From Shouchella clausii (GTDB taxonomy: Bacteria; Bacillota; Bacilli; Bacillales; Bacillaceae_D), in contig NZ_BCXJ01000004.1 in NCBI RefSeq assembly GCF_001598215.1, positions 62,001 through 126,000 on the forward strand: DNA of 64,000 nucleotides. The letters run 5' to 3'. The notes under the pieces are model-generated. The model was given only the letters and a program-made list of their open reading frames with translations. It did no database searches and was not told the origin of the DNA. The stretch's first letter is position 1; the number at the start of each line of letters is the position of its first letter. Of this stretch, positions 3,396 through 21,495 are shown in pieces. Both the position numbers and the translations under genes were made by a program.

Positions 3396-3409
3396 TGCTA
3401 TCACCTCCC

Positions 3410-4378: not shown

Positions 4379-4423
4379 CTATACCTCCTACTTAATCTAA
4401 ATTTATGTTCCTATATCACCTTA

Positions 4424-4438: not shown

Positions 4439-4461
4439 GTTAAAGGAACAATAAATAAACC

Positions 4462-4488
4462 ATAAATAATACTTGCGGTATTATTTAT
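4462..4488. repeat. 11-bp perfect inverted repeat between cro-like and antirepressor genes
   Basis: ATAAATAATAC and GTATTATTTAT separated by five bases (TTGCG). It could be a weak terminator or processing hairpin in the early transcript, or a regulator site; it has no strong T-run on either side. Confidence 0.5.
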
Positions 4489-6081: not shown

Positions 6082-6084
6082 CTA
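6058..6084 (-). terminator. terminator of the lipoprotein gene
   Basis: Hairpin AGCAGC/GCTGCT followed on the minus strand by a run of seven T, overlapping the last codons of the lipoprotein gene. Confidence 0.75.
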
Positions 6085-6621
6085 TTCAAATTCAACGGCT
6101 GTTATCAACGGAATTAGAAACTCTTCACTTTTATTATCTTTTGTAATCTTAACTGTAAAAACAGCAATCTCTTCTATCAGACGACTTTCAGCATCTAAAG
6201 TTTCCACTCGATACTTTAAGTAAACATCCTGCGAAGTCGCTCCATAGTCAATTACTATCCCGTTTTCACTTTCCTCGACAATTTCAAGTCCGTGTTCTTC
6301 TGCGATAGAACGTTTATCTTCTATATACTCCGAGAAGGTAATATCCAAACCGGCGTATTCCACTTCGAAATCATAATCGTCTCTATTAAAGGCTCTTATA
6401 TCTTCCGTAGGATCTGTTGCTCCTACAACTTCTAGTTCCTCATAATCAAAGACTTGAGGTATTTTTTCGCTGACTTCCCTGAAAACCGTGACATCCGTTT
6501 CTCCACCATCAAGAAAGTTTTCAAGTGCTTGTTTAGCTTCCTTTTCAACAGGGCTACCACTGCACGCGGCAAGAACCAAGACCAGCATTAGCGTCACAAT
6601 TGACAATACCCCATAACGCAT
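6082..6621 (-). CDS. secreted lipoprotein, unknown function
   Basis: A 179-residue protein starting at ATG 6619-6621 (TAGGTGAT upstream). Residues 1-20 are a lipoprotein signal peptide with lipobox VLAAC, so the cysteine would be lipidated and the protein anchored outside the membrane. The mature part is acidic and probably beta-rich. It sits alone with its own terminator, between the repressor and the lysis genes. That makes it a likely prophage accessory gene expressed in the lysogen. Some phage lipoproteins block superinfection, but nothing in the sequence proves that here. Confidence 0.7.
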   Translation of the reverse strand: MRYGVLSIVTLMLVLVLAACSGSPVEKEAKQALENFLDGGETDVTVFREVSEKIPQVFDYEELEVVGATDPTEDIRAFNRDDYDFEVEYAGLDITFSEYIEDKRSIAEEHGLEIVEESENGIVIDYGATSQDVYLKYRVETLDAESRLIEEIAVFTVKITKDNKSEEFLIPLITAVEFE

Positions 6622-6707
6622 TTTATCACCTACATAGTAATTTTTATCTATGAACATCATACCTGATTAAACTGGATATTTGTACTAGTTTTTCTATACC
6701 ATTTGTC

Positions 6708-6748
6708 AAAAAAAAAGCCCCACGTCATTAATGAGTAGAGGCATGCGA
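6708..6748 (-). terminator. terminator of the DUF3006/MBL pair
   Basis: An imperfect hairpin (GCCTCTAC with GTGGGGC around an AT-rich loop), followed on the minus strand by nine T, just after the DUF3006 gene. Confidence 0.6.
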
Positions 6749-6751
6749 AAG

Positions 6752-7009
6752 TTATTTTTTAAACTTACTCTTGTTTGTATTTATTCTGGAACGCTTATCT
6801 CTAATTCTTTTTTCCGCAGCAGCTGTTTCATCATTGTCTAGTTTAATGCTTACTACCTTATCTTTATCAATCTCCGCAAGGAGCCAGTCTCCCTCTTTGG
6901 CTCCTGACGGCAATTGACTTTTTTCTATTTCGTATTCAGTGCCTCTGTCTTTGATAGAAATAGTTACTATACCATCTTCAACTCGATCAATAACTGCTTT
7001 GACTATCAT
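6752..7009 (-). CDS. DUF3006 family small protein
   Basis: An 85-residue protein beginning MIVKAVIDRVEDGIVTISIK, with YEIEKSQLPSGAKEGDWLLA in the centre and a basic tail. This is the compact beta-barrel pattern of DUF3006, whose members are regularly found beside ComEC-like secreted metallo-beta-lactamase proteins in Bacilli. That is exactly the arrangement here: the upstream gene ends only four bases before this start. Function unknown; the pair is probably one unit. Confidence 0.8.
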   Translation of the reverse strand: MIVKAVIDRVEDGIVTISIKDRGTEYEIEKSQLPSGAKEGDWLLAEIDKDKVVSIKLDNDETAAAEKRIRDKRSRINTNKSKFKK

Positions 7010-7013: not shown

Positions 7014-7835
7014 TTACCTCTCCGTCCGAATTGTGTAACCGCTATTTGTTACATTAACCGTGACAGTCCCATTTTCGGCTGTCCCGTACACTTCTGCTCC
7101 TACTGCTTGCACTCTGTCAATTGCTTCCTTATGGGGATGCCCGTAACTATTATTTATACCTGCTGAGTAAATCGCAATATCCGGCCTAACAGCTGACATA
7201 AAAGGTGCGCTACTAGAGGTACGCGAGCCATGATGGCCCATGTGGTAAATATGACTTTGTAAAATAAGTCCTGTACCTAGCATTATGTTTTCAGCAGGAG
7301 TCTCCGCATCTCCTGTAAATAAAAAGCTCGTGTTGTTAGCAATCATCTTAAAACTTAGTGAGTCATTATTTAAATTACCTGTTAATGATGTTGGGTGAAC
7401 AATCAAAAAATCAAGACCTCCGACACTATAAGATTCTCCAGTGGATGGATAGACAACAGGTGTATTTGTTCTAATTAATGCATCCAGTAGCCGCTCATAA
7501 ACCTGCGAATTAGCCTCTGTCTCACTCAGCCAAACTTCATCCGGGTTCATTTCTTCTATTATGATGTCTGAGTAACTAATGTGATCAGCATGGGCGTGAG
7601 TGAGTATAAGCAAATCCAAATCAACTACGTCCCGAGCCTCTAACTGATCTAAAGTTGACCTATTTCGTCCCGTGTCGATCAAAACAGTCGTTTCGCCTGC
7701 CCTCACCAACGTGCTATCGCCTTGACCAACATCTAAAAAGTCTACGATGACTTGAGCGCTAGCACCTACAGGATGTACGCCAAAAAAAATCGTGAAGACC
7801 ACCATGATACCTGCAAGTTTCTTTAACTGATTCAT
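7014..7835 (-). CDS. secreted ComEC-like metallo-beta-lactamase-fold hydrolase
   Basis: A 273-residue protein with a signal peptide (residues 1-28, ending GASAQ). The mature part has the ComEC/Rec2-type MBL core: FLDVGQGDSTLV, then LIDTGRN, then the metal motif THAHADHI (HxHxDH), a later FTGDAE and a GHHGSRTSSS element, ending with SYGHPHKEAI. ComEC hydrolase domains degrade DNA strands outside the cell; free-standing relatives are presumed nucleases or phosphodiesterases. The export signal and the DUF3006 partner suggest an extracellular enzyme carried by the prophage. Substrate not known. Confidence 0.83.
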   Translation of the reverse strand: MNQLKKLAGIMVVFTIFFGVHPVGASAQVIVDFLDVGQGDSTLVRAGETTVLIDTGRNRSTLDQLEARDVVDLDLLILTHAHADHISYSDIIIEEMNPDEVWLSETEANSQVYERLLDALIRTNTPVVYPSTGESYSVGGLDFLIVHPTSLTGNLNNDSLSFKMIANNTSFLFTGDAETPAENIMLGTGLILQSHIYHMGHHGSRTSSSAPFMSAVRPDIAIYSAGINNSYGHPHKEAIDRVQAVGAEVYGTAENGTVTVNVTNSGYTIRTER

Positions 7836-7936: not shown

Positions 7937-8230
7937 TTAATAAATAGGACTCACTTTTTTGGCTGTTAAAGGAACTTGAAGCTCATTACATAAAAGCTGA
8001 AGAGTTTTTATATCTTTATGAGGAAGTTGTCGGAAGTGACAAACTTTGTTGCGGATACGGATGCTTTGATTAAGATGCTCAACTATCTGAGGCGAGTGAG
8101 TATAAAAAGGAACTACATAAGCAATGGTTTGTCGGTAGGAATCTTGGATGTGAGGTGGAACGTGGTGTTTGGCAGTAAGGTGGCTGCGGACGGCAAACAA
8201 AAGCGTATAAGCTGTTGCGTTTTTGTGCAT
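7937..8230 (-). CDS. 97-residue orphan with an RNxxxH-like motif
   Basis: ATG at 8228-8230 with a near-perfect AGGAGGTG upstream, which favours this strand over an overlapping plus-strand frame. The protein begins MHKNATAYTLLFAVRSHLTA and contains RIRNKVCHFRQLPHKD near residue 60-75. The R-N-x3-H spacing resembles HEPN ribonuclease motifs of abortive-infection proteins, but the protein is short and the match may be chance. It stands alone among accessory genes. Family not recognised. Confidence 0.55.
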   Translation of the reverse strand: MHKNATAYTLLFAVRSHLTAKHHVPPHIQDSYRQTIAYVVPFYTHSPQIVEHLNQSIRIRNKVCHFRQLPHKDIKTLQLLCNELQVPLTAKKVSPIY

Positions 8231-8263
8231 ATCACACCTCCTACCATATAATTCAACAAACTA

Positions 8264-8298
8264 AAAAAATAACCCTGCCGAAGCAGGGCCTTATTTAA
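8264..8298 (-). terminator. terminator of the GAF/57-residue gene pair
   Basis: Hairpin CCCTGC-TTCG-GCAGGG with a UUCG tetraloop, followed on the minus strand by TTATTTTTTT. Confidence 0.8.
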
Positions 8299-8312
8299 TA
8301 CAGCAATGACTT

Positions 8313-8486
8313 CTAGGCTCTTTGCAACACTTTCTCTTTCTTTTTTACTAGATTTTGTCTTTTTCTGTCACCTTCCCGAGAAGAAAATAACTTTTGTAAG
8401 AATTCATCGGCAGAAAGTCTTCCAGTCTCATATTTTTCCCTGAGAATAACGTCTTTTCTTTTTACCGTATCCTCATAACTCTTCAT
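8313..8486 (-). CDS. 57-residue basic helical protein, partner of the GAF gene
   Basis: ATG at 8484-8486 overlaps the TGA of the GAF gene (ATGA), with AAGGAGG in the last codons of that gene. The product starts MKSYEDTVKRKDVILREKYE, contains GRLSADEFLQKLFSSREGDR and ends in a highly basic tail. No family recognised. The coupled start shows it is made together with the membrane GAF protein. Confidence 0.6.
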   Translation of the reverse strand: MKSYEDTVKRKDVILREKYETGRLSADEFLQKLFSSREGDRKRQNLVKKKEKVLQRA

Positions 8487-9262
8487 ATAGCTGCCTCCTT
8501 CAATAGTCTTTCATTATATTTTAGCTCCATATTTAAGAGAGGTGCTAACACATTTGCAAAATAGCCAATGTAGTCAATATCGTCTCGATCAAAGGAATTC
8601 TTGTTAAGTCCATCTACGTTTAGAACTCCTATTACCTCATTTTGGTAAACAATCGGAACACACACCAGTGAAAAATATTCTTTTGACGCCTTCGGATTTC
8701 TCTCATATGTGGGGTCAGTTGATATATCCATGTTGGAATATATTTCTCCGTGTGTATAACAATACCCTGCTTTTGATTTTCCAACACTTAAAGTTAATTT
8801 ATTTTTACCTTCAACAGAGTACCCAAATCCGTGAAGAATTTTAAGTCCCTCTTCTCTTTCTGTAAAAACGGCAACTCTAAGTGAATTGTTCCTTTGTTTT
8901 GTAAGTAAAGTAGCTAGTCCAGGCAATACAAATTCATAAAGACTTCTAATTTTTTTCTCGAATTCTGCATCGGGTAAACTATCCCCCCACTGGGATAAAG
9001 TTAGCACAGTTTGGTTCATTAACTTGAGAACGTGAGACTTCAATTCGCTATGTTCATTTAATTCATCGAACTGTTCTTTTAATGTTTCCAAAGCTTTGTT
9101 CGGAGTGAATTTAATAACCCGAAATACAGTAACTTCCTGTTCCCCTCTTATCACTTTTAATAATAATACCAAAAACAATAACGCAAAAGCAATTAGACAG
9201 ACTGCCAAAGCCCAAGAGTACTCTTCAAGAATTTTATGTAGTATGCCCTCCAACAGTTCCAA
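8483..9262 (-). CDS. membrane-anchored GAF-domain protein
   Basis: About 260 residues. One transmembrane segment lies at residues ~15-40 (SWALAVCLIAFALLFLVLLL). A helical linker follows, then a GAF domain over the C-terminal ~150 residues, with LVCVPIVYQNEVIGVLNVDG as its characteristic core and an FDRDDIDYIGYFANVLAPLL ending. The cytoplasmic GAF domain could bind a small ligand. The start is uncertain: GTG at 9274 is too close to the GAGG ribosome site; TTG at 9262 is chosen; an ATA lies at the ideal distance. It is co-translated with a 57-residue protein and sits among prophage accessory genes. Output domain absent, so its role is unknown. Confidence 0.7.
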   Translation of the reverse strand: MELLEGILHKILEEYSWALAVCLIAFALLFLVLLLKVIRGEQEVTVFRVIKFTPNKALETLKEQFDELNEHSELKSHVLKLMNQTVLTLSQWGDSLPDAEFEKKIRSLYEFVLPGLATLLTKQRNNSLRVAVFTEREEGLKILHGFGYSVEGKNKLTLSVGKSKAGYCYTHGEIYSNMDISTDPTYERNPKASKEYFSLVCVPIVYQNEVIGVLNVDGLNKNSFDRDDIDYIGYFANVLAPLLNMELKYNERLLKEAAI

Positions 9263-9445
9263 TATTTTAATCACCTCGAAGTATTGATAACCCTTTCATT
9301 ATAATTTAGCTGGAAGCATCTTACAATAATATATTTACAAACATCAAAATAACTTTTTCTACCTTGTAAAGAGGGTCATTCAAATAAAAATAAAAATTTC
9401 TTAAAAAGTTTTTACAACCCTTACGCTAGAAAAATATAACCTAGT

Positions 9446-9474: not shown

Positions 9475-10440
9475 TTACAGCAGGGCGCGCCAAGTATTTC
9501 TGCCAGCAATTCCATCCACACCTAGCCCTTTGGCTTTTTGGAAAGCTCGTACGGCTTTTTCAGTTTTGTCGCCGAAGATGCCGTCTATCGCACCAACATC
9601 ATAGCCATTAATGTATAACAACGCTTGTAGTAATTTCGTCAAATTACCGCGTGCGCCCGCTCGCACATTGACCAAAGCTGCTTCTGTTTTTGGCCCTAAG
9701 ATACCGTCTACTTGTAAGCCTGCTGCAAATTGTTTATTTAGTTCGGTTTGTAGCACTTTGATCAAGGCTTTCAATGTTTCTGGCCCTAAAATGCCATCCA
9801 CTATGATGCTAAAACCATAACCATTTGCAAACTCTTGGATAACCCGAATGACGGGATCGCCAGATGGCTTTGGCGCCGGTTTCGGATTACTTGTTCCCCC
9901 TTTTAGCTTAAACGCCTTCGCAAAACCCTCGACATGACCGCGAGCGATTTTTTTAAGGAAGGCCGCGTCTTTTAACAGCTTCGCGTCGTGCGTGTTGTCA
10001 ATAAATAGATTTTCCGTCAAAATAGCCGGCATTTTAGTAAGGCGTAGCACGGCGAAATTGGCATCTTTTTTCCCGCGGTCACGTACATCCATTTCGGCCA
10101 AAATAGCCGGGTGCATTACGTTTTGATACGCGACTGATTTTGTTGATCGGCTGTTATGGATAAATGTTTCAAATCCCGTCCCGCCTGCGGCATTAATGTG
10201 GACGGAACAAAAGTAATCAGCGCCCCAATTGTTAGCCATGTTAGCACGATCTACGAATGTTGGGTAAACATCGCTGTCACGGCTCATTTTTACCGATACT
10301 CCCTTATATTCGCTTAGTAGAATATCCCGAATGTGACGGGAAATTGCTAGCACTAAGTCTTTTTCTTTCAAGCCGTTTCCTACTGCACCTGGGTCGGTGC
10401 CGCCATGTCCTGGATCAATAAAAATTTTAACCATAATCAT
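9475..10440 (-). CDS. endolysin: N-acetylmuramoyl-L-alanine amidase with peptidoglycan-binding domains
   Basis: A 321-residue lysin. Residues ~4-175 form an Amidase_3 domain: IDPGHGG (zinc His) at ~8, KEKDLVLAISRHI, the second His in SVHINAAGGTGFETF, and the catalytic Glu region AILTENLFIDN. The remaining ~130 residues carry two peptidoglycan-binding repeats (VDGILGPETLKALI and YDVGAIDGIFGDKTEKAVRA). It cuts the amide between muramic acid and the peptide stem, releasing phage at lysis. The ATG overlaps the holin stop by four bases, the normal holin-endolysin pairing, with AAGGAG in the end of the holin gene. Confidence 0.92.
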   Translation of the reverse strand: MIMVKIFIDPGHGGTDPGAVGNGLKEKDLVLAISRHIRDILLSEYKGVSVKMSRDSDVYPTFVDRANMANNWGADYFCSVHINAAGGTGFETFIHNSRSTKSVAYQNVMHPAILAEMDVRDRGKKDANFAVLRLTKMPAILTENLFIDNTHDAKLLKDAAFLKKIARGHVEGFAKAFKLKGGTSNPKPAPKPSGDPVIRVIQEFANGYGFSIIVDGILGPETLKALIKVLQTELNKQFAAGLQVDGILGPKTEAALVNVRAGARGNLTKLLQALLYINGYDVGAIDGIFGDKTEKAVRAFQKAKGLGVDGIAGRNTWRALL

Positions 10441-10847
10441 TCACTCTCCTTTTTATTTTCAGTGCCTTGATCATTAAAACCGTGAAGTTTATCCAAAATG
10501 ACTTGCGGTACTGGCAAACCGATTTTTCCCACGTTTTCCACGATGGACAACCCCTCATTGGCCATATAAAAAAGCACGGTTGCAGTAGCTACCATGCCGT
10601 TTAAATCCAAAATCCTATCTACAATGTTGGCTACGATGATAATTCCTAAAACTGCGATCTTACGGGCATATCCGTAAAGTGCTGATCGACTTCTGACCTC
10701 TTTAGTTATGATCGCTTTCATAATTCCAGTTGCTATGTCGATAAGCATTAGCACTATTAACAAATCCAAAAATTTAACGGGACCGAATAAGTACAACTTT
10801 GCTACTTCCAATGTATCCAAATTAAAAAATATCGATATGCTTTCCAC
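10437..10847 (-). CDS. phage holin, TcdE/phage_holin_4 family
   Basis: A 136-residue membrane protein. Hydrophobic segments at ~28-45 (LDLLIVLMLIDIATGIMKA), ~65-85 (IAVLGIIIVANIVDRIL) and ~92-108 fit the phage_holin_4 (toxin secretion/lysis holin) layout, including the D-x-x-T-G-I-x-K-A element after the first segment. It forms the lysis lesion that admits the amidase to the wall. It directly precedes the endolysin gene, overlapping by four bases. Confidence 0.9.
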   Translation of the reverse strand: MESISIFFNLDTLEVAKLYLFGPVKFLDLLIVLMLIDIATGIMKAIITKEVRSRSALYGYARKIAVLGIIIVANIVDRILDLNGMVATATVLFYMANEGLSIVENVGKIGLPVPQVILDKLHGFNDQGTENKKESE

Positions 10848-10902: not shown

Positions 10903-11103
10903 CTACTTCTGCTGTTTCATTAAACTTTCAATTTTTTCATCACGTTTTTGGATTTGTTTATGCAGCTCTTTTATTTCTTCATCTTTTGTCTGAAGGGTCA
11001 CGTCAGCCATGATCAAATTCGTTTCAAGTTCCCCGATTTTCAATGACATAGCTTGTGACACTCGCTGCCCTAGCTCTTGCTGTTTCTCTTGATTCTTCAT
11101 CAT
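10903..11103 (-). CDS. 66-residue coiled-coil phage protein
   Basis: Starts at ATG 11101-11103 with GGAGGCGG upstream and overlaps the end of the tail-tip gene by 80 bases in another frame. The product (begins MMKNQEKQQELGQRVSQAMS) is an almost unbroken heptad pattern, a coiled coil over residues ~20-64. Small coiled-coil proteins often lie between the tail fibre and lysis modules of Bacillus phages. Function unknown. Confidence 0.65.
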   Translation of the reverse strand: MMKNQEKQQELGQRVSQAMSLKIGELETNLIMADVTLQTKDEEIKELHKQIQKRDEKIESLMKQQK

Positions 11104-13495
11104 AAACCGCCTCCTGATCTTCTATTTTTATTTCATCCTCAAGCCTTTCTTGGAAAACCACATCGATGTTAGCAGGACCGAATTGCTGATCCCCGTTTTT
11201 CCAATCATCCTGATACTGCCAAAAAGCTCCAGCTTTATCGTAACGCTCGCCGACTATACGGATGTCAGTCTTTTCCTTACCCTCAACAATAAAAGACCGG
11301 TTCTCTTTTTTTATTCGGGCCCCATTACTAGAAAAGATAGCAAACTTGCCATCAACGACCTGCAAAAATTTCTCGTCAATGTTAATTTCTTTTCCTGGTG
11401 GCACATCAATCATTAGATACTCAACGAGATATTGTGGCGAATCGACTGGTGACATTCCTAGTAACTCCCCAGCAATTTCAATTGAGCCACCCTGCTTGGT
11501 ACCGTCCGCTTTAAAGGCGTGTACCATACGTCCACCCATATAAAACTCTACTTGCCCATTGGACTCATGTTGAAAAATGTAGTTCCCATTGCCCGCCGTC
11601 CATTGCACACCATTTGACACTGGGCTAACGCGTGCTTGCCTCTGTCCAAACCACGTTGAATAAGACGGAAATGTTACGCCGTTAGAGCGGGCGGTCATCA
11701 TCACCGTTACTTGCTCAGCGTTTAGATTATGGACTAGCTCAAATACTGAGTCATTGCGGTTTGTAAAACCTCCATATCCAATTTGGACATTGTTACGGTT
11801 GCTTGTTTGCATCAATTGAATATGCGGCTGATCCGTAACACGCGAGCCGAAAATGCTATTACCCAAATCAGCTCCAATCATTGCAGCATTTGCATACATG
11901 GACAAACGGGATCCCTGTTGCTGCGATCGGACAGCCCCAGCAACAATGGTGTGCCCGCGCTCTTGGCTTGTATCAAACGACTGATAACGGTGCTGCCCCT
12001 GTTGATACGCAATACTAAAATAAGCGTTAGGCTCCATTGTTAGCGTAGCGCCTCTAACGTTTGGGTTGCTTATCGATCTGGACGGATATAATGTGCAAGC
12101 AAGATCGCCGTTTAGCGCGAAAAACTCCAGTCCATGCTGACCAAAGCTTGCGTTTAGATCATTTCCATCAAACGTATACACGTATCCACCAGCAATCATT
12201 ACCGACCGACTACCGCCTTGTGTGATCACTCCTGCCATAATCGATTCTGCGACGACGCCAAAAGCAGTGATAGCATTCCGAAATGTTTGCAACCCATCTG
12301 TGCTTATGCCAATGCCAGCACTATTAAATAAAACAATATGATTGGAGTTAACTTTGCTGATTGCTTTTATGCCATCTTCAAAATTAAGTTCTGTACGAGC
12401 TGACAAAAGAGCATTAGTAGCAATGCGCACAGCATCAGCAAGTCCGCCCATTGGTACTTTATCCTGACCGGCAAGTATGCGGTCTAGTTTTTTAGATGTA
12501 TTAGCAAACCTCGTGACGGTTTCCGTCATTCGTTGGCGTACATTGGATAAGGTTGTTTCAATATCAATAGGTTCCAAGAGAGCGTTAAGCGTTTCGGTTA
12601 CTTCTACAATCCTCGCCTCAGCCACAAAGTTATTCATCGGCTCATAGACAATAAACCCCCAATCCCCAACCTCAGGATAATTGGAGGCATACCCAGCTTG
12701 TCGCAAGTCGGCCAAAGAAACAGTCACACTTAGTTGAGGCTCGTCAATCAGCACGTCCCGTAAATGTTGCTGCATATTAGCCGCAACTGTACGACGTTCG
12801 TCATAGACTGGATCGGCATGTCTAATGCCAAAAATCTTAGCATTAGGAGACGTGTATTTTTCATGAACTGGAAACGTTCCATTCTCACGCTCTTCCCCGC
12901 CAAACCCTTCGATGTGTGTTGAAAAGTTGTCCGTGTCCTCCTGCTTGTCAATCGCTTTTAGATTGACACCCCAGCGAAACTGGAAATCCGTATTTTGCCC
13001 GATGCGTTTTTGGATGGTTACTGTCCGGCTTTGGACGGTAAACTCGGCCCCGTAACGTTCCAAGACCGTTTTAAAAAGAGACAGGCAATTGTCTCGCCCA
13101 AAATTCTCAAATTCTTCTGCGTCAAACGATCCAATCACTTGATAGTGATATGGCGTTGGGCCAAAGACACGCGACAGAGCTGCAACAAATGTCTGCGATC
13201 CCGTGTGCAACTGATACTGATAACAATCAATCATGTCAATAAAAAACCTGTGTACAGCTTCAACCTGTTTGTACGTCTTGTTGCCAAAATCTTTTTCGTT
13301 AACCCGTCTAATGATGTACTCTTCGTTTCTGAAGTGCACAATAGATTCGGGTACAACAAAATCAAAACCAGGATCATCTGGAGACACGGAAAAAGTCAAT
13401 AGCTTGTCGCCATTGACTTTTGTGTTAAACGTTATGTTTCTTATTAATGTAAGAGTTTCATAGTCTCCTTGTATGTTTTTAATAAGTAACGTGAT
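11024..13495 (-). CDS. tail-tip/endopeptidase-tail-like baseplate protein, probable AUC start
   Basis: About 823 residues. The N-terminal ~340 residues resemble the prophage endopeptidase tail (Tal/gp18-like) hub: LLIKNIQGDYETLTLIRNIT, VNGDKLLTFSVSPDD, SIVHFRNEEYIIRRVNEKDF and VEAVHRFFIDMID. The remainder is beta-rich with repeats typical of receptor-binding parts. GGGGAGG lies 8 bases before an ATC at 13493-13495, where the protein ought to begin; the only canonical alternative is a TTG at 13537 with no ribosome site. It follows Dit and the fibre in the late operon, separated from the fibre by the plus-strand polymerase cassette. Confidence 0.82.
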   Translation of the reverse strand: MTLLIKNIQGDYETLTLIRNITFNTKVNGDKLLTFSVSPDDPGFDFVVPESIVHFRNEEYIIRRVNEKDFGNKTYKQVEAVHRFFIDMIDCYQYQLHTGSQTFVAALSRVFGPTPYHYQVIGSFDAEEFENFGRDNCLSLFKTVLERYGAEFTVQSRTVTIQKRIGQNTDFQFRWGVNLKAIDKQEDTDNFSTHIEGFGGEERENGTFPVHEKYTSPNAKIFGIRHADPVYDERRTVAANMQQHLRDVLIDEPQLSVTVSLADLRQAGYASNYPEVGDWGFIVYEPMNNFVAEARIVEVTETLNALLEPIDIETTLSNVRQRMTETVTRFANTSKKLDRILAGQDKVPMGGLADAVRIATNALLSARTELNFEDGIKAISKVNSNHIVLFNSAGIGISTDGLQTFRNAITAFGVVAESIMAGVITQGGSRSVMIAGGYVYTFDGNDLNASFGQHGLEFFALNGDLACTLYPSRSISNPNVRGATLTMEPNAYFSIAYQQGQHRYQSFDTSQERGHTIVAGAVRSQQQGSRLSMYANAAMIGADLGNSIFGSRVTDQPHIQLMQTSNRNNVQIGYGGFTNRNDSVFELVHNLNAEQVTVMMTARSNGVTFPSYSTWFGQRQARVSPVSNGVQWTAGNGNYIFQHESNGQVEFYMGGRMVHAFKADGTKQGGSIEIAGELLGMSPVDSPQYLVEYLMIDVPPGKEINIDEKFLQVVDGKFAIFSSNGARIKKENRSFIVEGKEKTDIRIVGERYDKAGAFWQYQDDWKNGDQQFGPANIDVVFQERLEDEIKIEDQEAVYDEESRETARARAASVTSYVIENRGT

Positions 13496-13586
13496 ATAGA
13501 CCGCCTCCCCTTTGTTACTTTTTCTACTTTTACGCAATTTAATATGTTAAACTTAGAGTTATCTGGCGCAGGAGGTAATTTAACTC

Positions 13587-13736
13587 ATGAATAATATTTT
13601 CTTTATATTAGCCGCACTTGCAGCAGTCATTACATTATTTGTTGACGATAGACTATTTCTACTGTTCGGCGCTTTAGCAGTGATATTTATTGGTTTTGGG
13701 GTTTTCAGCCAGCAAGATAAGGAGCATGCTGAATGA
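13587..13736 (+). CDS. 49-residue membrane protein, first gene of the polymerase cassette
   Basis: ATG at 13587 with GGAGG ten bases upstream. The product begins MNNIFFILAALAAVITLFVD, has two hydrophobic segments with a DDR turn between, and ends QQDKEHAE. The stop overlaps the start of the O-antigen polymerase-like gene (ATGA), so the two are co-translated on the strand opposite to all surrounding tail genes. No family recognised; it may be a helper or stabiliser of the polymerase. Confidence 0.65.
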   Translation: MNNIFFILAALAAVITLFVDDRLFLLFGALAVIFIGFGVFSQQDKEHAE

Positions 13737-15013
13737 ATGTACGCAAACCAAACGACTCATCTAAAACCGTTTTACTGTATTTAATATTTATTGTTACAGT
13801 AATTGGATTTAGCAGAATTGAAATAGCATCTACATTCCTTGTGATTGGGCTCTCATTAATTATGTTGTTCAAAGAAACTAAAAGCATGGATCAATTCCAT
13901 GGGACTACTTCATTTATTTTGCTAGCATCATCTGTTCTTCTTGCGATGTCGATGCTCTCTTACAGCACGACCAATGGGATAAAAACGTCCCTTGTCTTTA
14001 TAATCGCTCTGCTAGCATTTATCTCCACGTCCCGATTGAATTGGAATAAATATAGCGTTGATAAACACTTAAAATTTATTAACCTTTTAGCTCTACTAAG
14101 TATTATTATTGGATACCTTTTTTACTTTAATCCTAGTATTTTAAATCAAATTGGCAACGTTATTTTAAACTCAGAGCATTTAGAATCAACACAGTTCTGG
14201 AACTCAAACATACGAATGACTAGCACTTTTGTGCACCCAAGTATTTTTGGCTCATTCATTTATATAGCGGGTTTGATTTCTCTTTATATGTTGTTTGCGC
14301 AGAAAAGAAAGTTATTCCCCCTTATATCTCTAATGGTAATTATTTCAGCGATTTTTCTGACTAACACTCGTACAGTCATTTTGGCATTCGCAATCGGCGC
14401 CCTTGTCTTTGTGTTTTATCATCTAAGTTTTAAAAAACTAATTCTGATTTTTGCTGCCTCCGGGTTCGTTGGCCTTGTTTACTCCTTGTTATCAAACAAT
14501 TTGTCTAACTATTTTATTTTGGCTGATCGGATTAACACCACAGATTCAATAGATAGCAGACAACTACTATACAATGATGCTTTATCAATGTTTTATGACA
14601 AGCCATTATTCGGACACGGACTAGGTTCATTTCTACATAGACCAAGTGAGTATGTTAGTACATGGGAAGTAACAAATGCGCATAATTTATTTCTACAACT
14701 TTTGGCTGAAATTGGTCTTATAGGTACCGCAATAGTCTTTACAGCAATAATTTTCCTCATCGTAATAGACATTAACCTGATAAAGAAATTAAAAAAGAAA
14801 AGTAATACTTTATTTAGTGTTCAAGTTCTAGCCTTTTCAATAACAATTGCTGTTTTGGCTGACTCAATGGTTCAAAATCCACTTTACTCATGGAGAATCG
14901 TTGTCCTTGTCGGATTTATAAGAGGTATATCTTACTTTATATATAAGCAAAGCAAGGAACCCTCTAAATCTGAATCGTTTTTAGGAAATAATATAAACAG
15001 TGGGTATGTCTAA
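13733..15013 (+). CDS. O-antigen ligase/polymerase-like membrane protein (Wzy_C/WaaL type)
   Basis: A 426-residue integral membrane protein with about ten to twelve hydrophobic segments. A large extracytoplasmic loop at ~250-310 holds the typical features of the O-antigen ligase/polymerase superfamily: SRQLLYNDALSMFYDKPLFG, HGLGSF, then AHNLFLQLLAEIGLIG. Such enzymes link or transfer surface polysaccharide units carried on a lipid. In a Gram-positive host the substrate would be capsule, secondary wall polymer or teichoic acid. The gene sits inside the phage tail module on the opposite strand, is AT-rich, and ends at a bidirectional terminator. It is therefore probable lysogenic-conversion cargo that alters the host surface, possibly the phage receptor. 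Confidence 0.82.
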   Translation: MNVRKPNDSSKTVLLYLIFIVTVIGFSRIEIASTFLVIGLSLIMLFKETKSMDQFHGTTSFILLASSVLLAMSMLSYSTTNGIKTSLVFIIALLAFISTSRLNWNKYSVDKHLKFINLLALLSIIIGYLFYFNPSILNQIGNVILNSEHLESTQFWNSNIRMTSTFVHPSIFGSFIYIAGLISLYMLFAQKRKLFPLISLMVIISAIFLTNTRTVILAFAIGALVFVFYHLSFKKLILIFAASGFVGLVYSLLSNNLSNYFILADRINTTDSIDSRQLLYNDALSMFYDKPLFGHGLGSFLHRPSEYVSTWEVTNAHNLFLQLLAEIGLIGTAIVFTAIIFLIVIDINLIKKLKKKSNTLFSVQVLAFSITIAVLADSMVQNPLYSWRIVVLVGFIRGISYFIYKQSKEPSKSESFLGNNINSGYV

Positions 15014-15036
15014 TTTCGGCTACCCACTGTTTTTTG
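14996..15036. terminator. bidirectional terminator between polymerase cassette and tail fibre
   Basis: AACAGTGGGTA and TACCCACTGTT form an 11-bp stem, followed on the plus strand by TTTTTG. It overlaps the last codons of the polymerase-like gene. Confidence 0.75.
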
Positions 15037-15037
15037 T

Positions 15038-17152
15038 TTACGGACTAACTTTTTTGTATTTGACTTGGATGTCCCCTACATTAACACTGCCGACGTCGCT
15101 GCCTATACGCAAAATAACGTCATTGATACTGCTGCCCTGCCCGATTACCGCGTCGATTGTGTACTGTCGTAAGCTAGTTTCAGTTATTTCCTGCGAATAA
15201 GATGGTGGAGTAACGTTGCTGTAACGGTAGTAAAAGTTAGCAAAACCTTTAGCTCCCGACTTCGCAACCGCGTAAAAGCTAATGGAGACAATTGAGTTTT
15301 CAATTAGACTGTGCGCGTCCAAGAAAATATCTACATATTGCCCTTGGATTGTCTCTGCCGAAGGTTTGCCGGCAATTAATACCGATGTACTTCTACGCCA
15401 TCCAGTGCCGCCAAACACGGTATACTTAAACAAACCGTCGTTGTCAGGCTTGCCTACAAACTCTTTTTCTAGGTTTACAGTTCCATAAACCCAGCTTTCG
15501 TTATCCAACAACCCTATCCCTCTTTTGAAATAGTTTGGATTTGAGTCCGCGGAGAACAAGTGGTTTTGCTTTTTAATACCGCTAAACGTATTTAATCCTA
15601 ATTTAACCGATCCCATCACACGGCCTGAGTGTGTTATGCCGTACTCCATTTGGCCACTTTCCGTGTTAGATATGGCGTTTCCTGTGACCGCGGAGGAACC
15701 GTTGGCAATGTAAATGCCCGTCGAATACACTCCTGTTGCGACCACCCCACAATCGGACACGTTAACTCCCGACACTACCGCGTTATCACAACGATGTGTT
15801 TGTGCCACGCCCGCATATGCGCATTTTTTTATGATACCGCCCACCACGCTGATGCGACGAGGGTAGTCTGCGTCGTCAACGTTATCAGGATCTAATACGC
15901 GATTATGATAATCCGCCCCAAGTACAATACCGCTGTCTCCCGACCCTGAAATATTACTATTGCTTATCACAATGTCGTGACACTCGCTGTTGATATTAAC
16001 AGGTTCCAACGATTTGTAACATTCGTAAGTGACTTGGGCATTTACAGGAACGTTATAATTTAAAAACACTACTTGATACGCCTTGTCACCTAATTCTTCC
16101 ACCCTATATTTTTCCCTGTCCAGTTTTTGATTGTTGATATACAGATTTCCCCGCCCTGGATATATATAGTCTTCAAATTCAAGTGGTAGGTAAGGTTCGC
16201 CACCTGAAGCTATTTCACTTTGCTTTAGCAGAACGTTATTAAACGAATTAGAGCTTATTACCCCATCCCAACTCCATCGTGTTTGGATACCAAAACCCAT
16301 GCACTTATCTAGCACATTACCGGACACCTGAAAGTTGGTGCTTTCTCCTGTAATCACAATTGGAGTGATTTGTTTATGCCCGTCTCCCAATAATTGGTTA
16401 TCTTTTATGACAAGCATCCGCGTCCCATTCGAAAAGACGTGATGCCCAATTTCTCCTTCGAAAACATTATCTGTGACAATGCACTCGTTTCCTCTTACTG
16501 CTAGGGTATAGAGTTGCCCATTCGTCCCCTTGAACTTTAGGCCTGTCACGGTGCATTTGTTGCCGTCAATGTTGATCCGCGCATTTCTACCCGAGCCAAT
16601 TAACGTTCCTCCACCATGTAGCTTTTGTCTATCTTTACTGACGGTTATTGTGCCGGTATATAAAAACGTATAGCCCGCTGGGAAAAATAAATCGCGACCA
16701 GTTTCGGCAGCAGCATTGATCGCGGCAGTAACGTCAGTTTGACCGCTGCCGTCAGCATTATAAGGCGGGGCCATGACGTTTAAGGCTATTTGACCCATTT
16801 GATAAGATAACCGCGTATCCACCTCATTAATTGCTGTCGGATCAATGTCCTGTATCTCCATCCACACACCATTAGTCATACGATAAACTCTGCCAGTATT
16901 GCGCACCATGGCCGTCTGCCCCTCACTGGCGTCAGGGTATGTCGTAGCGAGATCATCAAATGTGTCAACTGGCGGCAGCCAATCGATCTTAGCTCGGTCT
17001 ACTACTTTATCAAACGCTTTATCGGCTACCTCGTCTACCGCGTTATCAAATCTGTTTTGTAGTCCTTTGTATTTCCCCTCGATCTTGTCAAAGTTTTCGT
17101 TTACATCCTTACGTACTCGGTCAAATTGTGTGCCTACATGTTTTAGATTCAA
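15038..17152 (-). CDS. tail fibre with right-handed beta-helix (pectate-lyase-like) domain
   Basis: A 704-residue protein. Residues ~1-60 are a coiled-coil anchor (begins MNLKHVGTQFDRVRKDVNEN). A short LPPVDTFDDLATTYP segment follows, then at ~135 the NADGSGQTDVTAAINAAAE start of the pectate-lyase/right-handed helix fold. Repeats such as TGTITVSKDRQKLHGGG, TVTGLKFKG and IVISNSNISG mark helix rungs up to ~500, with a C-terminal beta-sandwich. Such proteins bind or cut surface polysaccharides. It lies next to the polysaccharide polymerase-like cassette, an interesting pairing of receptor recognition and receptor modification. Confidence 0.83.
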   Translation of the reverse strand: MNLKHVGTQFDRVRKDVNENFDKIEGKYKGLQNRFDNAVDEVADKAFDKVVDRAKIDWLPPVDTFDDLATTYPDASEGQTAMVRNTGRVYRMTNGVWMEIQDIDPTAINEVDTRLSYQMGQIALNVMAPPYNADGSGQTDVTAAINAAAETGRDLFFPAGYTFLYTGTITVSKDRQKLHGGGTLIGSGRNARINIDGNKCTVTGLKFKGTNGQLYTLAVRGNECIVTDNVFEGEIGHHVFSNGTRMLVIKDNQLLGDGHKQITPIVITGESTNFQVSGNVLDKCMGFGIQTRWSWDGVISSNSFNNVLLKQSEIASGGEPYLPLEFEDYIYPGRGNLYINNQKLDREKYRVEELGDKAYQVVFLNYNVPVNAQVTYECYKSLEPVNINSECHDIVISNSNISGSGDSGIVLGADYHNRVLDPDNVDDADYPRRISVVGGIIKKCAYAGVAQTHRCDNAVVSGVNVSDCGVVATGVYSTGIYIANGSSAVTGNAISNTESGQMEYGITHSGRVMGSVKLGLNTFSGIKKQNHLFSADSNPNYFKRGIGLLDNESWVYGTVNLEKEFVGKPDNDGLFKYTVFGGTGWRRSTSVLIAGKPSAETIQGQYVDIFLDAHSLIENSIVSISFYAVAKSGAKGFANFYYRYSNVTPPSYSQEITETSLRQYTIDAVIGQGSSINDVILRIGSDVGSVNVGDIQVKYKKVSP

Positions 17153-17170: not shown

Positions 17171-17989
17171 TTATATATAAAGAAAACGGAAGTCGAACGC
17201 TGCTTCAATACTCCCGCTACTTCCTTCAATTCGTATTTCATTCCAACCCGTATCCAGAGTAAATGCAGCCAAGTTAGTTTGCGCTAAAATAGTCTGTCCG
17301 TTTTTCAAAGCGCGACATCCACGCTCAAGTCTGATATTGTCCGTCGCCGTAGTGGTGCCTTCGTATCGCCAATCTGCACCTGACGTTAAATTACGAATAC
17401 GCAGTCGGTTAGACGCGCCCCTAAACGTAATTACTGCATCCTGATTGCGTAGATCAACCGTCACATTACCCGCATTGTAAACACGAAAAGATGTTGTATT
17501 AAAACGGTAAATAAGCGGCTCCGTGGGTATACCTTGCCCGAACTGCAATTTTTGGCTATCAAAACGAAATTCGTTCTCTGACGTCCGCACAACCGACTTA
17601 GCGAACGGAGAAAAGGACTGAAAGTCCACCTGAAACCGAGCGGCTGTTGGTGACACATACTCCATGCCAAATTCACCGGAGACGGCCTCCCACATCTTCC
17701 CCGGCTGCCTCATGTCAATAAGTTGCTTTGTCTTAGGAGTAGCCAGCATGGCATAAAATTCATCACGAATTAACTGTAAATCCAAGTGGTCGTAACCTAT
17801 AGCGCCAAATTCTGCTCTTATAGTCCGTTGCCCATAATGAGCGGATGTAAACACAGAACCCGGAAGCCCAGGGATCGGTTCGCTTGTATAATCAGTTGAT
17901 AAGCTTTGGGGGATAAAGCTGAGCAAATAAACATTGAGCTTCCGGTGGTCTAGGATCTGACCGTCTTCTATTATCTTCAACCAATTCAC
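17171..17989 (-). CDS. distal tail protein (Dit family)
   Basis: A 272-residue protein. The N-terminal ~120 residues hold the Dit belt-domain pattern of siphovirus tails (LNVYLLSFIPQSLSTDYTSE, GSVFTSAHYGQRTIRAEFGA, RDEFYAMLATPKTKQLID), the rest is a beta-sandwich. Dit rings connect the tail tube to the tip. The start overlaps the tape-measure stop by four bases and it is followed by the fibre gene, the normal siphovirus order. Confidence 0.85.
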   Translation of the reverse strand: MNWLKIIEDGQILDHRKLNVYLLSFIPQSLSTDYTSEPIPGLPGSVFTSAHYGQRTIRAEFGAIGYDHLDLQLIRDEFYAMLATPKTKQLIDMRQPGKMWEAVSGEFGMEYVSPTAARFQVDFQSFSPFAKSVVRTSENEFRFDSQKLQFGQGIPTEPLIYRFNTTSFRVYNAGNVTVDLRNQDAVITFRGASNRLRIRNLTSGADWRYEGTTTATDNIRLERGCRALKNGQTILAQTNLAAFTLDTGWNEIRIEGSSGSIEAAFDFRFLYI

Positions 17990-20900
17990 ATTCGAACACC
18001 CCCGCTTAATGCATTGCGACGGCTGACACGGCCTTGTCTAATGTCTATAGAAGGAAACGTAACCTCAGCAACTTTCTCCCCATTAATAATGACGGGCGCT
18101 GGCTGCACTACAACTCTCACGGTATCATTGGTCATATTTTGCTGGCCGTTAAGCTGTCTTACAATCCGATCCGCTTCCCCGCTCGGACTCACGCCAGAGG
18201 CATAGGCCGGAATTTTATTCAACGATGAAAGAATTTTCTTTGTCTCGTCATGCGTGAAAACTTGGGTGCCACGCGGAAGGTTAGCAACCCCAAAATCTAG
18301 CATCGCCCACTTATTCCCGTGTCGCGCTAGCTCGTAGCCTTCTTCACCAACCCAAGCGGGACCTCCAGGAGCGAAATCGGTGCCTTCGGCAAAACCAGGG
18401 ATGTTACCCAGCACACTGCGAATACCCGCGCTCAATCCGCTCGCTACGTTTTGCCAAACAGCACTCAGCGTGACGCGTTTGGTTGCAGACTTAGACGCTT
18501 CCTCACTTATCGCTTTCGCCGTGCCGTTGTCATCTACATCGACAGATTTGTCAATGTCTTGGCCAAGCGTTCTGTTCATATCCTCGGCTTTCCCTGTTCC
18601 TTCATCGATTTTGCTGTTTGTACGTCCTTGAGCAGCCGTGTTATTGTCATGAATACCAGACGCTTGGGCAAGGATGTTGTTATTAAAAGCAATTTGCCGT
18701 TCCCGCTTCTTCTCTTCTCCAGTAACGGTTTGCACACCGCCGATCTCTCGATCAATCAAACCTAAAGTAGTTTCATACGCCCCGATCTGATCGTTAATAA
18801 CACCGAGTTGGTCTCTAAGCGTGCCGGTTTGGTCGCCTTCCCTTTTAATTTTGCCTTCTAATTCCGCCTTTTGTTCTTTGAGCTTGTTTAACTGCTCGTT
18901 TGCGACATCTACGCCTTTTTGTCCTTCCTCGTTTATACCAATTGTTTTCAACAAAATTTGTAGATATTCAGCGTCAAGCAGCTCTCCTTTTATTCGGTGT
19001 TCCTCAGCTGCCGCGATGATATTGTTTTGCTCATCTAATTGCTCTTTAAGTGTGTCTCGTAACTCTCCGGCTTTTCCATTTAAAATGGCTTCCAAAATAT
19101 CAGCTTCACGTCGCGCCTCGTTCTGCTGCTCTTGCGTATACAGGTAATTCCCCGAAATGTCTTTAGCCTCGTTTAATCTATCATTTAAAACCATTTGGTC
19201 TTCGTTTTGTAATTCGGTGAGTAAGCCTATACGTTCTAACGTTTCTTCTCGTTCTTTCTCAGCTTGTGCAGCATTTCGAATATGTTCTGTTCGTTCCTCG
19301 GCCCAGTTGCCGCGTTGGAGCTCCGCTTCTGCTTTAGCAACTTCTAAAGTGTTGTCTACTAATTTTTGGAGTTCCTCACCGACACCAGCAACAGCCTCAC
19401 CATGTACAGTGTGGGCTTCAGCTACTTGCGGGGCCTGATCAATGATAGACGCATTGGCATCTAATAGTTCGTCGATCTCTTCATGCGTTAAACCCGTTTT
19501 TTCCACTAATGCGTCATATCGTTTTTCAAGCTCTTCCATGGCCTCAACTTCTGGATTTTTAGCCATTTCATGACGGATTTCTAGCAGTTCCTTTATTTGT
19601 CCCGTGGTTATCTCGGCTTTTCCTCTTAATTCCTCATACTTGGCTACAGACGCTTCCAACTCTGTATGTTGGTCATTCAAGCTTTGCACAAGCTCAAGAT
19701 TGGATTCAGACGCTTCGTCCGCTGTCTTTTTCCAATCCCATATAGCAAGACCCAAGGCACCTACACCCGCGATTGCCAGACCAACAGGGCCAGCGGCACC
19801 AAGACCAAGCATTCCTATACGTCCAAGCAACCCTTTTCCTCCAACATTTCCGAAAGCAGTGGCGACAGTCCCTATGACTTTGACAATGCCACCAAGAGTT
19901 GTCGTTAATCCACCCAGCACAATAGAGGCTGGCCCAACTGCGGCGGCTAAAGCCACAAACTTCAAAATGGTTTGCTGCTGCTGAGTATCCATATCTGCAA
20001 AAGCTCTAGCACCGTCTTCGATAGACTTAATAAGTGGTTCGGCAGCTTCAAGCGCGGCAAACATGGCAGGTATGAGCGCCTCACCCATCGTGATGCCAAT
20101 ATCAAAAAAGCGGTTCTTTAGCATTTGTAATTGTGATTCCGTTGTGGCATACCGTTCTTCAGCCTCATTTGTTAGAGCGATGTTTTCTTCCCACGCATCA
20201 TTAGCCGTGCGTAAAGCGTCGTTAGCCATATCTCGGGCGGACGAAGAACGAAGAATAGTATCACGTAAACGAATTTCAGAGAGTCCAAGTTCATCGATGA
20301 TCTGAAAGGCTGATTCGCCCTCTTCCGACAAGTCACCCAATCCGCCTAGGAATGTGAAGATAGCCGTGGCCGCGTCCTCTTCAAATGCTCTCTTAAATTC
20401 ACTTGTAGACATACCAGCAATACGGGCAAACTCTTCTAGCCGCTTGCCGCCTTGGTCTACATCAGAGGCCATTTCAATCATTAACTTGCTGATAGCGGTA
20501 CCCCCTGCTTCCGCTTTAATGCCGACCGATGTTAAAGCGGTGGCAAATCCTAAAATATCAGCTTCCGACATGTTAATCTGTGTACCAGCACCAGCAATCC
20601 TAAGCGCCATCTCACTGATTTCACCTTCAGTTGCCGCGAAATTGTTACCAAGATCGACTATAGTTGAACCTAATCTATCAAAGTCCGTTTGCGCCATTCC
20701 TGTGATGTTTGCGAGACGAGCAAGAGCCATCGCCGCATCATCACTTGACATGTCTGTTGCCACGCCAAGGTCAATCATTGTCCGTGTAAAAGATAAAATA
20801 TGCTCTTTCTCAATTCCTAGCTGACCGGCTGCTTCACCAACACGCGCAATTTCCGTTGCAGCTGCTGGAATCTCTAAGGCCATATCCCGTATGCCCCTCG

Positions 20901-21495
20901 ATAATCTGGCATACTCCGATTCTGTTGCATCAACGGTCTTTCGGACTCCCGCAAACGCACTTTCATAGTCCGAAGCAGCCTTGATCATACTTATACCACC
21001 AGCAATGATAGGGGCGGTGACACGCATGGTGTAGGATCGACCAAAAGCGGACATATCTCGGCCTACGGTTTGTAACTTGTCTCCCACAGTCGTCAAGTTA
21101 TTCCCCATATTAAGCCATGGATTTTGCGCCCTGGACAACTCGTTGTTGACACCCTCTAAAGACGACTTTGTTCGGTTCATCGCTGCAACAGCGTTGTTGT
21201 ATTGACGACTCAAATCCATAACCGCTTTTTCGTTTCGATTTTTGGCCAATCTAGCCTGATCATAGCGGCTTCGTAAAGCCATAACTTGCCGCTGTTGGAC
21301 TTCAAGGCGTCGGCTCAAAATATCCGATTTTTGTCTAAGACCGTCAATACTACGTCCATACGCCTGTCCAGCACTTCGAGCCACATTCATTTCCGACCGA
21401 ATACCTTTTAAGGTATCTCTAAATCCTTGTAGGCCTCGTGTGGTGCCTTGGTCTAACATTGTCAAACGAGTTCTTAAAGCTCCCACTTCTGTCAT
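17986..21495 (-). CDS. tail tape-measure protein (TP901 family)
   Basis: A 1169-residue protein. Residues ~1-130 are coiled coil; ~150-480 match the TP901 tape-measure core (ASDYESAFAGVRKTVDATES, AAMALARLANITGMAQTDFD, AGGTAISKLMIEMASDV). Two hydrophobic segments follow at ~510-590 (LVALAAAV..., GLGAAGPVGLAIAGVGALGL), then a long coiled coil. At the usual ~1.5 angstrom per residue the length predicts a tail near 170 nm. The gene is between the tail chaperone pair and Dit. Confidence 0.92.
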   Translation of the reverse strand: MTEVGALRTRLTMLDQGTTRGLQGFRDTLKGIRSEMNVARSAGQAYGRSIDGLRQKSDILSRRLEVQQRQVMALRSRYDQARLAKNRNEKAVMDLSRQYNNAVAAMNRTKSSLEGVNNELSRAQNPWLNMGNNLTTVGDKLQTVGRDMSAFGRSYTMRVTAPIIAGGISMIKAASDYESAFAGVRKTVDATESEYARLSRGIRDMALEIPAAATEIARVGEAAGQLGIEKEHILSFTRTMIDLGVATDMSSDDAAMALARLANITGMAQTDFDRLGSTIVDLGNNFAATEGEISEMALRIAGAGTQINMSEADILGFATALTSVGIKAEAGGTAISKLMIEMASDVDQGGKRLEEFARIAGMSTSEFKRAFEEDAATAIFTFLGGLGDLSEEGESAFQIIDELGLSEIRLRDTILRSSSARDMANDALRTANDAWEENIALTNEAEERYATTESQLQMLKNRFFDIGITMGEALIPAMFAALEAAEPLIKSIEDGARAFADMDTQQQQTILKFVALAAAVGPASIVLGGLTTTLGGIVKVIGTVATAFGNVGGKGLLGRIGMLGLGAAGPVGLAIAGVGALGLAIWDWKKTADEASESNLELVQSLNDQHTELEASVAKYEELRGKAEITTGQIKELLEIRHEMAKNPEVEAMEELEKRYDALVEKTGLTHEEIDELLDANASIIDQAPQVAEAHTVHGEAVAGVGEELQKLVDNTLEVAKAEAELQRGNWAEERTEHIRNAAQAEKEREETLERIGLLTELQNEDQMVLNDRLNEAKDISGNYLYTQEQQNEARREADILEAILNGKAGELRDTLKEQLDEQNNIIAAAEEHRIKGELLDAEYLQILLKTIGINEEGQKGVDVANEQLNKLKEQKAELEGKIKREGDQTGTLRDQLGVINDQIGAYETTLGLIDREIGGVQTVTGEEKKRERQIAFNNNILAQASGIHDNNTAAQGRTNSKIDEGTGKAEDMNRTLGQDIDKSVDVDDNGTAKAISEEASKSATKRVTLSAVWQNVASGLSAGIRSVLGNIPGFAEGTDFAPGGPAWVGEEGYELARHGNKWAMLDFGVANLPRGTQVFTHDETKKILSSLNKIPAYASGVSPSGEADRIVRQLNGQQNMTNDTVRVVVQPAPVIINGEKVAEVTFPSIDIRQGRVSRRNALSGGVRM

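Follow-up and report, generated by a model that had tools for sequence, protein, structure and literature searches.

Within a stretch of 64,000 nucleotides from Shouchella clausii (contig NZ_BCXJ01000004.1, positions 62,001 to 126,000; hereafter the window, to whose full length all coordinates refer unless another sequence is named) lies a prophage in which two genes run against the surrounding tail genes. The first encodes a membrane peptide of 49 residues and the second, wzy, a protein of 426 residues that matches the family Wzy_C. Together they occupy the gap between the gene for a beta-helix tail fibre and that for the tail endopeptidase, Tal. An earlier note on this DNA had described such a unit, with a polymerase- or ligase-like product, a beta-helix fibre as its direct neighbour, and ribosome sites and a terminator of its own, and had proposed that it alters the phage receptor in the lysogen. 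The description is borne out in every one of these respects; the proposal is weighed below. The features of the locus are as follows.

13570 to 13575, forward strand: ribosome site AGGAGG of the peptide gene, read from the sequence
13587 to 13736, forward strand: peptide gene, 49 residues; membrane peptide with two transmembrane (TM) segments, candidate inhibitor of the host polymerase, or a partner to it
13719 to 13724, forward strand: ribosome site AAGGAG of wzy, read from the sequence
13733 to 13736, forward strand: stop/start overlap ATGA of the peptide gene and wzy, read from the sequence
13733 to 15013, forward strand: wzy, 426 residues; polytopic membrane protein of the Wzy_C family and candidate for an alternative polysaccharide polymerase
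14995 to 15035, forward strand: intrinsic terminator, a hairpin that runs into T6, located between wzy and the fibre gene
15038 to 17152, reverse strand: beta-helix tail fibre, tail-to-tail with wzy; pectate-lyase-like, NosD 24.8 bits (cut-off 23.6)
11024 to 13537, reverse strand: Tal, the other border of the cargo slot; Prophage_tail 144 bits

The cassette and its products

The terminator has stem arms at 14995-15006 and 15021-15032 and runs into the T6 at 15030-15035, and the stretch 14986-15045 has a folding energy of -21.9 kcal/mol. The stop codon of wzy (15011-15013) is inside the loop region of the hairpin, which was absent from the list of a first pattern scan with a loop limit of 8. 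In base composition the cassette stands apart from its surroundings, with a G+C content of 33.6% in wzy and 36.7% in the peptide gene against 44.3% in Tal and 44.7% in the fibre gene; the four tail genes for Tal, fibre, Dit and tape measure lie at 44-47% and the two cassette genes at 34-37%. In a scan across positions 1-33240, none of 640 segments of the size of wzy was as AT-rich as wzy itself. Two trivial explanations are ruled out. The cassette is not chromosomal DNA at the prophage edge, having tail genes on one side and Tal, holin and amidase on the other, and the clear Wzy_C match of the 426-residue protein excludes a misread tail or holin gene.

The match of this protein to Pfam PF04932 (Wzy_C) scores 77 bits (E-value 1.7e-21; cut-off 31.7), and 11 TM segments are predicted. 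A structure model based on 35 aligned Wzy-like sequences has a predicted local distance difference test score (pLDDT) of 71.5 and a predicted template modelling score (pTM) of 0.71. Its best fold match is the cryo-electron microscopy structure of WaaL, 7tpg (E-value 5.5e-6, TM-score 0.57/0.60), followed by FtsW (E-value 1.9e-3), so that the model makes it a polytopic membrane protein of the WaaL/SEDS fold. The profile of the same alignment, when compared with solved structures, finds the oligosaccharyltransferase 9rmk and WaaL 7tpg. Among Pfam matches at E-values up to 1 there is no extra domain of the PglL type (PglL_A or Wzy_C_2, the extra domains of PglL-type O-oligosaccharyltransferases), and only PF04932 exceeds its cut-off. 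Two sequence motifs are present: GN1, with the pattern RX(11-24)GXG, at R276-GHG296, and GN2, with the pattern HNX9GX(2-4)G, at HN317...G331. Across the 35 aligned sequences R276, G294, G296 and G328 are invariant, and H317, N318 and G331 nearly so. PMC12502699 ties GN1 together with GN2 to type-B Wzy polymerases, which are mostly beta-forming. Judged by these sequence features, the protein is a candidate alternative polysaccharide polymerase. Scans of collections of genome contigs and viral contigs with the polymerase confirmed no relative, the plasmid matches (6 records) are distant and partial, and another genome of the same species (G011) has no match to either the polymerase or the fibre of the window.

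The hydrophobic segments of the peptide span residues 4-18 and 23-37. A tblastn search with it against phages gave no match at E-values up to 10. When aligned with gp22 of phage epsilon15, a protein annotated 'serotype conversion: alpha polymerase inhibitor' with 'two transmembrane domains', it reaches a score of 46, as did 1 of 2000 plain shuffles of the peptide and none of 57 other two-TM open reading frames (ORFs) picked mechanically from the DNA examined. This likeness is suggestive. Homology with gp22 was considered and dropped after a shuffle test that preserves the TM segments, given below.

Known conversion systems and a recurrent slot

The closest known counterpart is the serotype conversion cassette of Salmonella phage epsilon15 (NC_004775). 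In both phages a two-TM peptide gene is followed by a Wzy_C polymerase gene, antisense to the late genes, and the polymerase gene lies tail-to-tail with the tailspike or fibre gene with a hairpin between them. The epsilon15 polymerase, gp21, is annotated as an 'O-antigen ligase family protein' and, in AY150271, as 'serotype conversion: beta-polymerase'; it has both GN1 and GN2, and the window protein shares 27% identity with it over 189 residues. There are differences as well. Epsilon15 has a Gram-negative host and an O-antigen substrate, its genes for gp22 and gp21 are spaced 12 nt apart whereas those of the window overlap by ATGA, and its peptide has 66 residues as opposed to 49. Beyond gp22 come a small membrane protein, a holin and an endolysin, where the window has Tal.

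In anatomy the cassette is closer to epsilon15 than to Pseudomonas phage D3 (NC_002484). Phage D3 also carries a small membrane peptide gene and a wzy gene antisense beside a gene annotated as tail-fibre-like, but has an acetylase gene (oac) between iap and wzy, and its peptide, of 31 residues, is without similarity to that of the window. According to PMC4815439 and PMC12004945, the D3-derived unit turns alpha O-antigen into beta; the former deals with the beta-polymerase of D3 and points out that epsilon15 has a Wzy_C domain, and the latter reports that Iap mimics a TM segment of Wzz and competes for Wzy. A further case, given in PMC13228068, comes from Acinetobacter baumannii, where prophage polymerases (wzy1Ph and wzy2Ph, the latter Wzy_C) occur in the same prophage as a tailspike depolymerase, wzy1Ph being close to the depolymerase gene. 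There the prophage Wzy gives a changed capsule linkage and the host Wzy appears to be suppressed; unlike the window, the case concerns a Gram-negative capsule, and no inhibitor gene is identified in the portion of text available. The earlier note had called a Gram-positive case a new kind of conversion. With these systems in print, the cassette appears instead to be the Gram-positive form of a kind already described.

For Gram-positive hosts, the titles and abstract starts listed in our full-text literature searches (in one of them 12 of 238 papers) included no published case of a prophage Wzy, and the term 'O-antigen' was absent from two papers on thermophilic Bacillus-group phages. A published likeness is TarP of Staphylococcus aureus (PMC9650247), which changes a wall polymer and is encoded by a prophage of a Gram-positive host; it is a wall-teichoic-acid glycosyltransferase and not a repeat-unit polymerase. 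A study of Curtobacterium prophages places wall-polysaccharide genes in predicted prophage regions, and the parts of its text examined mention no polymerase beside a fibre (PMC9862828). Database annotations alone provide closer parallels, in that GVE2 ORF19 and phiRS7 Orf18, both from Gram-positive siphophages, are antisense Wzy_C genes in the gap between fibre and Tal; they differ from the window in having no convincing small peptide gene upstream.

The cassette is thus not unique: the gap between fibre and Tal is a recurrent cargo slot with diverged Wzy_C genes. Seven carriers were found, with the gene antisense in the window, GVE2 and phiRS7 and on the strand of the tail genes in YPHTV-1, L126, L164 and L182; A403 and MinS1 are variants beyond these seven. 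Those placed in detail are listed here.

Geobacillus virus E2 (GVE2), ORF19: antisense, between a 'pectin lyase' fibre and Tal
Staphylococcus phage phiRS7, Orf18: antisense, between an annotated tail fibre and Tal
YPHTV-1, polymerase: tail strand, flanked by a gene annotated zinc carboxypeptidase (fibre by position only) and by an acyltransferase-3 gene that precedes Tal
L182 (genome G116): in the order fibre (by position), antisense 255-residue gene, Wzy_C, Tal; Wzy_C on the tail strand
Anoxybacillus phage A403 (L174), 2766-4466: gene annotated holin, between Tal and fibre; 566 residues, holin domain PF05105 followed by Wzy_C (44.6 bits)
Microcystis phage MinS1 (L019), 5437-6924: unannotated Wzy_C ORF, antisense, beside a gene judged fibre-like by eye

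MinS1 is a cyanophage in which Tal was not identified; its Wzy_C scores 36.3 bits, and 31.3 when the protein is trimmed, against the cut-off of 31.7. GN1 is found by pattern in all eight phage proteins compared (window, GVE2, YPHTV-1, phiRS7, MinS1, A403, L126 and L164), a count in which epsilon15 and D3 are not included.

How were these carriers reached? A search of a phage collection with three polymerase queries gave 16 different records, ten of them unannotated and the other six representing four phages, two of which were listed twice. Two of these queries came from GVE2 and YPHTV-1, which the first search had already brought up, and MinS1 and phiRS7 are weak matches of the third query (E-values 0.03 and 0.005). 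All four annotated complete phages reached by polymerase likeness alone have the gene beside the fibre or beside a gene in the fibre's place. One unannotated record, MT836906, has ORFs that look like those of a polysaccharide cluster, with no phage gene recognised. A second approach, through the fibre N-terminal motif FRNDLNANF, led to 17 contigs that were grouped into 11 phages by common proteins. The slot holds Wzy_C in three of these (GVE2, L158, which equals L126, and L164), other possibly sugar-related genes in three (DUF6270 in L159, GDSL in L152 = L125, hexapeptide in L154 = L165), ORFs without an assigned family in two (L151, L160/L163), and nothing or an ORF below 80 residues in three (L153, the L157 group, L162). 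When the motif was picked, GVE2 and L126 had already been identified, which leaves L164 as the sole independent Wzy_C case in this set. L182 came in addition from a sample of 159 order genomes. PK5.1 is a relative without cargo, with a fibre-Tal gap of 78 nt.

Identity of the slot polymerases to the window protein is only 14-27% (GVE2, YPHTV-1, phiRS7 and MinS1), or 20-23% over the full alignment for GVE2 and phiRS7, which suggests repeated recruitment rather than descent. Orthology with the GVE2 polymerase was rejected at the 25% identity found in the phage-collection search. Wzy_C matches occur in 24 of 41 family genomes and in 122 of 159 order genomes; such chromosomal genes are common, and donors are therefore plentiful. 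The 159 order genomes have 57 listed Tal matches (E-value at most 1e-8) in 41 genomes, and at least two (own and G116) have Wzy_C within 2 kb of Tal. Since these pairs were matched by eye and the count is a lower bound, no enrichment of Wzy_C beside Tal across genomes is claimed. A Tal scan of the genome-contig collection confirmed no relative. In 56 of the 59 stretches returned by a Wzy_C motif scan of IMG/VR the motif falls within an ORF of 100 residues or longer, and several are copies of one another; their neighbours could not be assigned, and no conclusion on gene position is drawn from them.

Some further arrangements were seen in these sequences. In L182 the antisense 255-residue gene (8110-8877), which has a signal-like N-terminus, lies between the fibre and the same-strand Wzy_C gene and makes two cargo genes in one slot. 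In A403 fibre and Dit are encoded on one strand, and Tal and the holin/Wzy_C gene on the other. The DUF6270 gene of L159 (4581-5462) is antisense in the fibre-Tal gap and adjoins a beta-helix fibre. In the IMG/VR contig L078 a Wzy-like gene (11904-13295) is antisense between genes that are virion-like by eye, a possible further case.

Probable lysogenic conversion and its alternatives

A polymerase needs a substrate, and the host genome (4,657,378 bases in 14 contigs) has a suitable locus. At about C1:460,666-472,335 there is a rhamnose-polysaccharide locus with galU, an initial sugar-phosphate transferase, a polymerase, rmlA, rmlB and a flippase, which means that a Wzx/Wzy-type pathway is encoded; genes like rmlC, rmlD, ugd and glycosyltransferases were judged from sequence starts only. 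The polymerase of this locus has 431 residues and matches TIGR04370, 'oligosaccharide repeat unit polymerase' (130 bits, cut-off 40). It is without GN1 and GN2, and differs from the phage protein, the best pairwise alignment having an E-value of 0.26. At E-values up to 1e-5 it is found in 1 of 13 genus genomes, its own, and is thus strain-variable, as expected of a surface polymer. The phage wzy is the sole Wzy_C match over cut-off in the host genome, which also has an endospore germination permease (TIGR00912, over cut-off), the mark of an endospore former and hence of a host among the Bacillota.

We consider it probable that the two genes form a lysogenic-conversion cassette, in which an alternative polymerase changes the polysaccharide that the fibre reads. 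In the lysogen, the Wzy_C protein would join undecaprenyl-linked repeat units from the host Wzx/Wzy locus by a linkage that differs from that made by the host polymerase. The two-TM peptide would probably act like its counterparts in epsilon15 and D3 and disturb the host polymerase, letting the new form prevail. The beta-helix fibre encoded next to the cassette would then neither recognise nor cleave the changed polysaccharide, and related phages, as well as the phage's own progeny, would fail to adsorb to the lysogen. With wzy beside the fibre gene, the reader and the changer of the receptor would be inherited together. The strongest points in favour are the match to epsilon15, the recurrent slot, which holds Wzy_C in other Gram-positive phages, and the host locus. 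They make receptor-altering conversion, as the earlier note proposed, the best reading of the cassette, on the premise that it is expressed in the lysogen.

Several observations weigh against it. The strongest are the same-strand cases, the missing promoter and an oligosaccharyltransferase as the best sequence relative among solved structures. In four of the seven slot carriers the polymerase is on the strand of the tail genes, and the argument from antisense placement to expression in the lysogen does not hold in general. A pattern scan found 11 promoter-like sites in 12500-16500 where 10.9 were expected, none of which stands out, and the best match found by hand in 13400-13580 has only 9 of 12 positions. 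A search of solved structures with the single sequence yields 9rmk alone (E-value 1.9e-9). GN2 is found by pattern in just three of the eight phage proteins (window, YPHTV-1 and phiRS7), and D3 Wzy-beta fails both patterns. The Wzy_C match of L164 is weak (21.1 bits, which is below the cut-off), and a second check gave no Pfam match at E-values up to 0.1. Among the 41 family genomes Tal and Wzy_C are paired in the own genome alone, and the polymerases are so diverged (25% between window and GVE2) that no vertically kept function is shown.

The peptide and the host polymer give further reasons for caution. The score of 46 against gp22 was reached by 155 of 5000 TM-preserving shuffles, and the score against D3 Iap was matched by 661 of 2000 shuffles, which is no likeness. 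No convincing two-TM peptide was found in the 500 nt upstream of the polymerase in any of eight other carriers (the six slot carriers, A403 and MinS1), the hydrophobic ORFs of 33-57 residues upstream in phiRS7 and L182 being judged chance. The hairpin of epsilon15 is annotated on the tailspike strand, whereas the T-run of the window is on the wzy strand. Finally, a second host cluster at about C1:1,076-1,083 kb contains a flippase and a 483-residue membrane protein with a GN1-like motif and no Pfam or NCBIfam match, which makes the identity of the target host polymer a guess.

What else might the cassette do? It might act in the lytic cycle, where an altered new surface polymer would spare progeny from loss on debris or infected cells. 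The genes of YPHTV-1, L126, L164 and L182, on the tail-gene strand, would be co-transcribed late, in keeping with such a role. In the window, GVE2 and phiRS7 the gene is antisense to the late genes, so that late transcription would run against it, and in the window a terminator closes the cassette transcript; we regard a lytic role as unlikely. A ligase or oligosaccharyltransferase, moving finished glycan to another acceptor such as a wall polymer or protein, would also fit a Wzy_C domain, which is common to polymerases, WaaL and O-oligosaccharyltransferases, and would agree with WaaL as the best fold match and 9rmk as the best sequence match among solved structures. It is about as unlikely as the lytic role, given that both type-B Wzy motifs are present, that Wzy_C is the only domain over the Pfam cut-off and none of the PglL type appears, and that the protein aligns with the annotated beta-polymerase gp21. 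Moreover, Bacillota and other Gram-positive hosts lack lipid A and hence a lipid A core acceptor.

The cassette might, instead, be a passenger: an AT-rich gene could have lodged where the tail genes tolerate an insertion, and have no part in adsorption today. Its composition is unlike that of its surroundings, the scans made gave no close relative, donors are common, and among family genomes it is beside Tal only in its own. Intact frames, ribosome sites, the ATGA overlap and the terminator speak against a passenger, as does a slot repeatedly filled by Wzy_C and possibly sugar-modifying genes (acyltransferase, GDSL, DUF6270, hexapeptide), which was judged, without statistics, to be unlike random cargo; we find this explanation improbable. 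Least of all do we expect the peptide to be the active part, superinfection-exclusion or holin-like, with the polymerase incidental. Its weak PHROG holin match (E-value 0.063), the one sign of this, is not significant, its gene overlaps wzy by ATGA, and the prophage has a proper holin at 10437-10847.

Phage-polymerase serotype conversion is a classic of Gram-negative biology, and the same anatomy is now seen in a Gram-positive prophage, with Wzy_C genes recurring in one slot. This would mean that receptor reading and rewriting evolve as one linked unit across both envelope kinds, and some surface variation of Gram-positive bacteria would escape typing that covers only the chromosomal polysaccharide locus. 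A simple genomic rule would be to look between fibre and Tal for receptor-changing genes, and it would also serve to predict which surface polymer a prophage fibre reads. A bolder version, which we offer tentatively and rather doubt, is that Gram-positive temperate phages keep this slot as a dedicated place for genes that rewrite the fibre-read polysaccharide, recruiting independent polymerases repeatedly, and that the window holds a complete two-part switch, an inhibitor peptide with an alternative polymerase, that would convert a rhamnose-containing wall polysaccharide of the host from alpha to beta linkage. That would amount to Gram-positive seroconversion of the epsilon15 type.

Other features of the prophage

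The prophage around the cassette also has the following features.

3614 to 4378: KilAC antirepressor
4873 to 5595: cI-like repressor
10437 to 10847: holin, by domain match
17171 to 17989, reverse strand: Dit, distal tail protein, by profile matches
17986 to 21495, reverse strand: tape measure, by profile matches
32098 to 33240: integrase, adjoining tRNA-Val
33334 to 33406: tRNA-Val

Residues 55-183 of the fibre match PDB entry 7chu (E-value 6.8e-13), a structure of residues 205-723 of the GVE2 fibre; a structure model of the window fibre has a pLDDT of 34.6, too low for use. At the start of Tal (13480-13540) there is no standard start codon at the position where its relatives begin, and the nearest in-frame standard start, a TTG, is at 13537 and has no clear ribosome site.

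Near the lysis genes, positions 7014-7835 encode a protein of the metallo-beta-lactamase fold that matches phrog_7043, called a tail protein (E-value 4.9e-47), and positions 8483-9274 a GAF-domain protein that adjoins the endolysin gene. The integrase region (31939-33421) is 69% identical to positions 15831-17315 of L131, from a genome of another genus (G014), up to the tRNA-Val. The L131 prophage looks decayed, and the insertion site is perhaps common to it and the prophage of the window.

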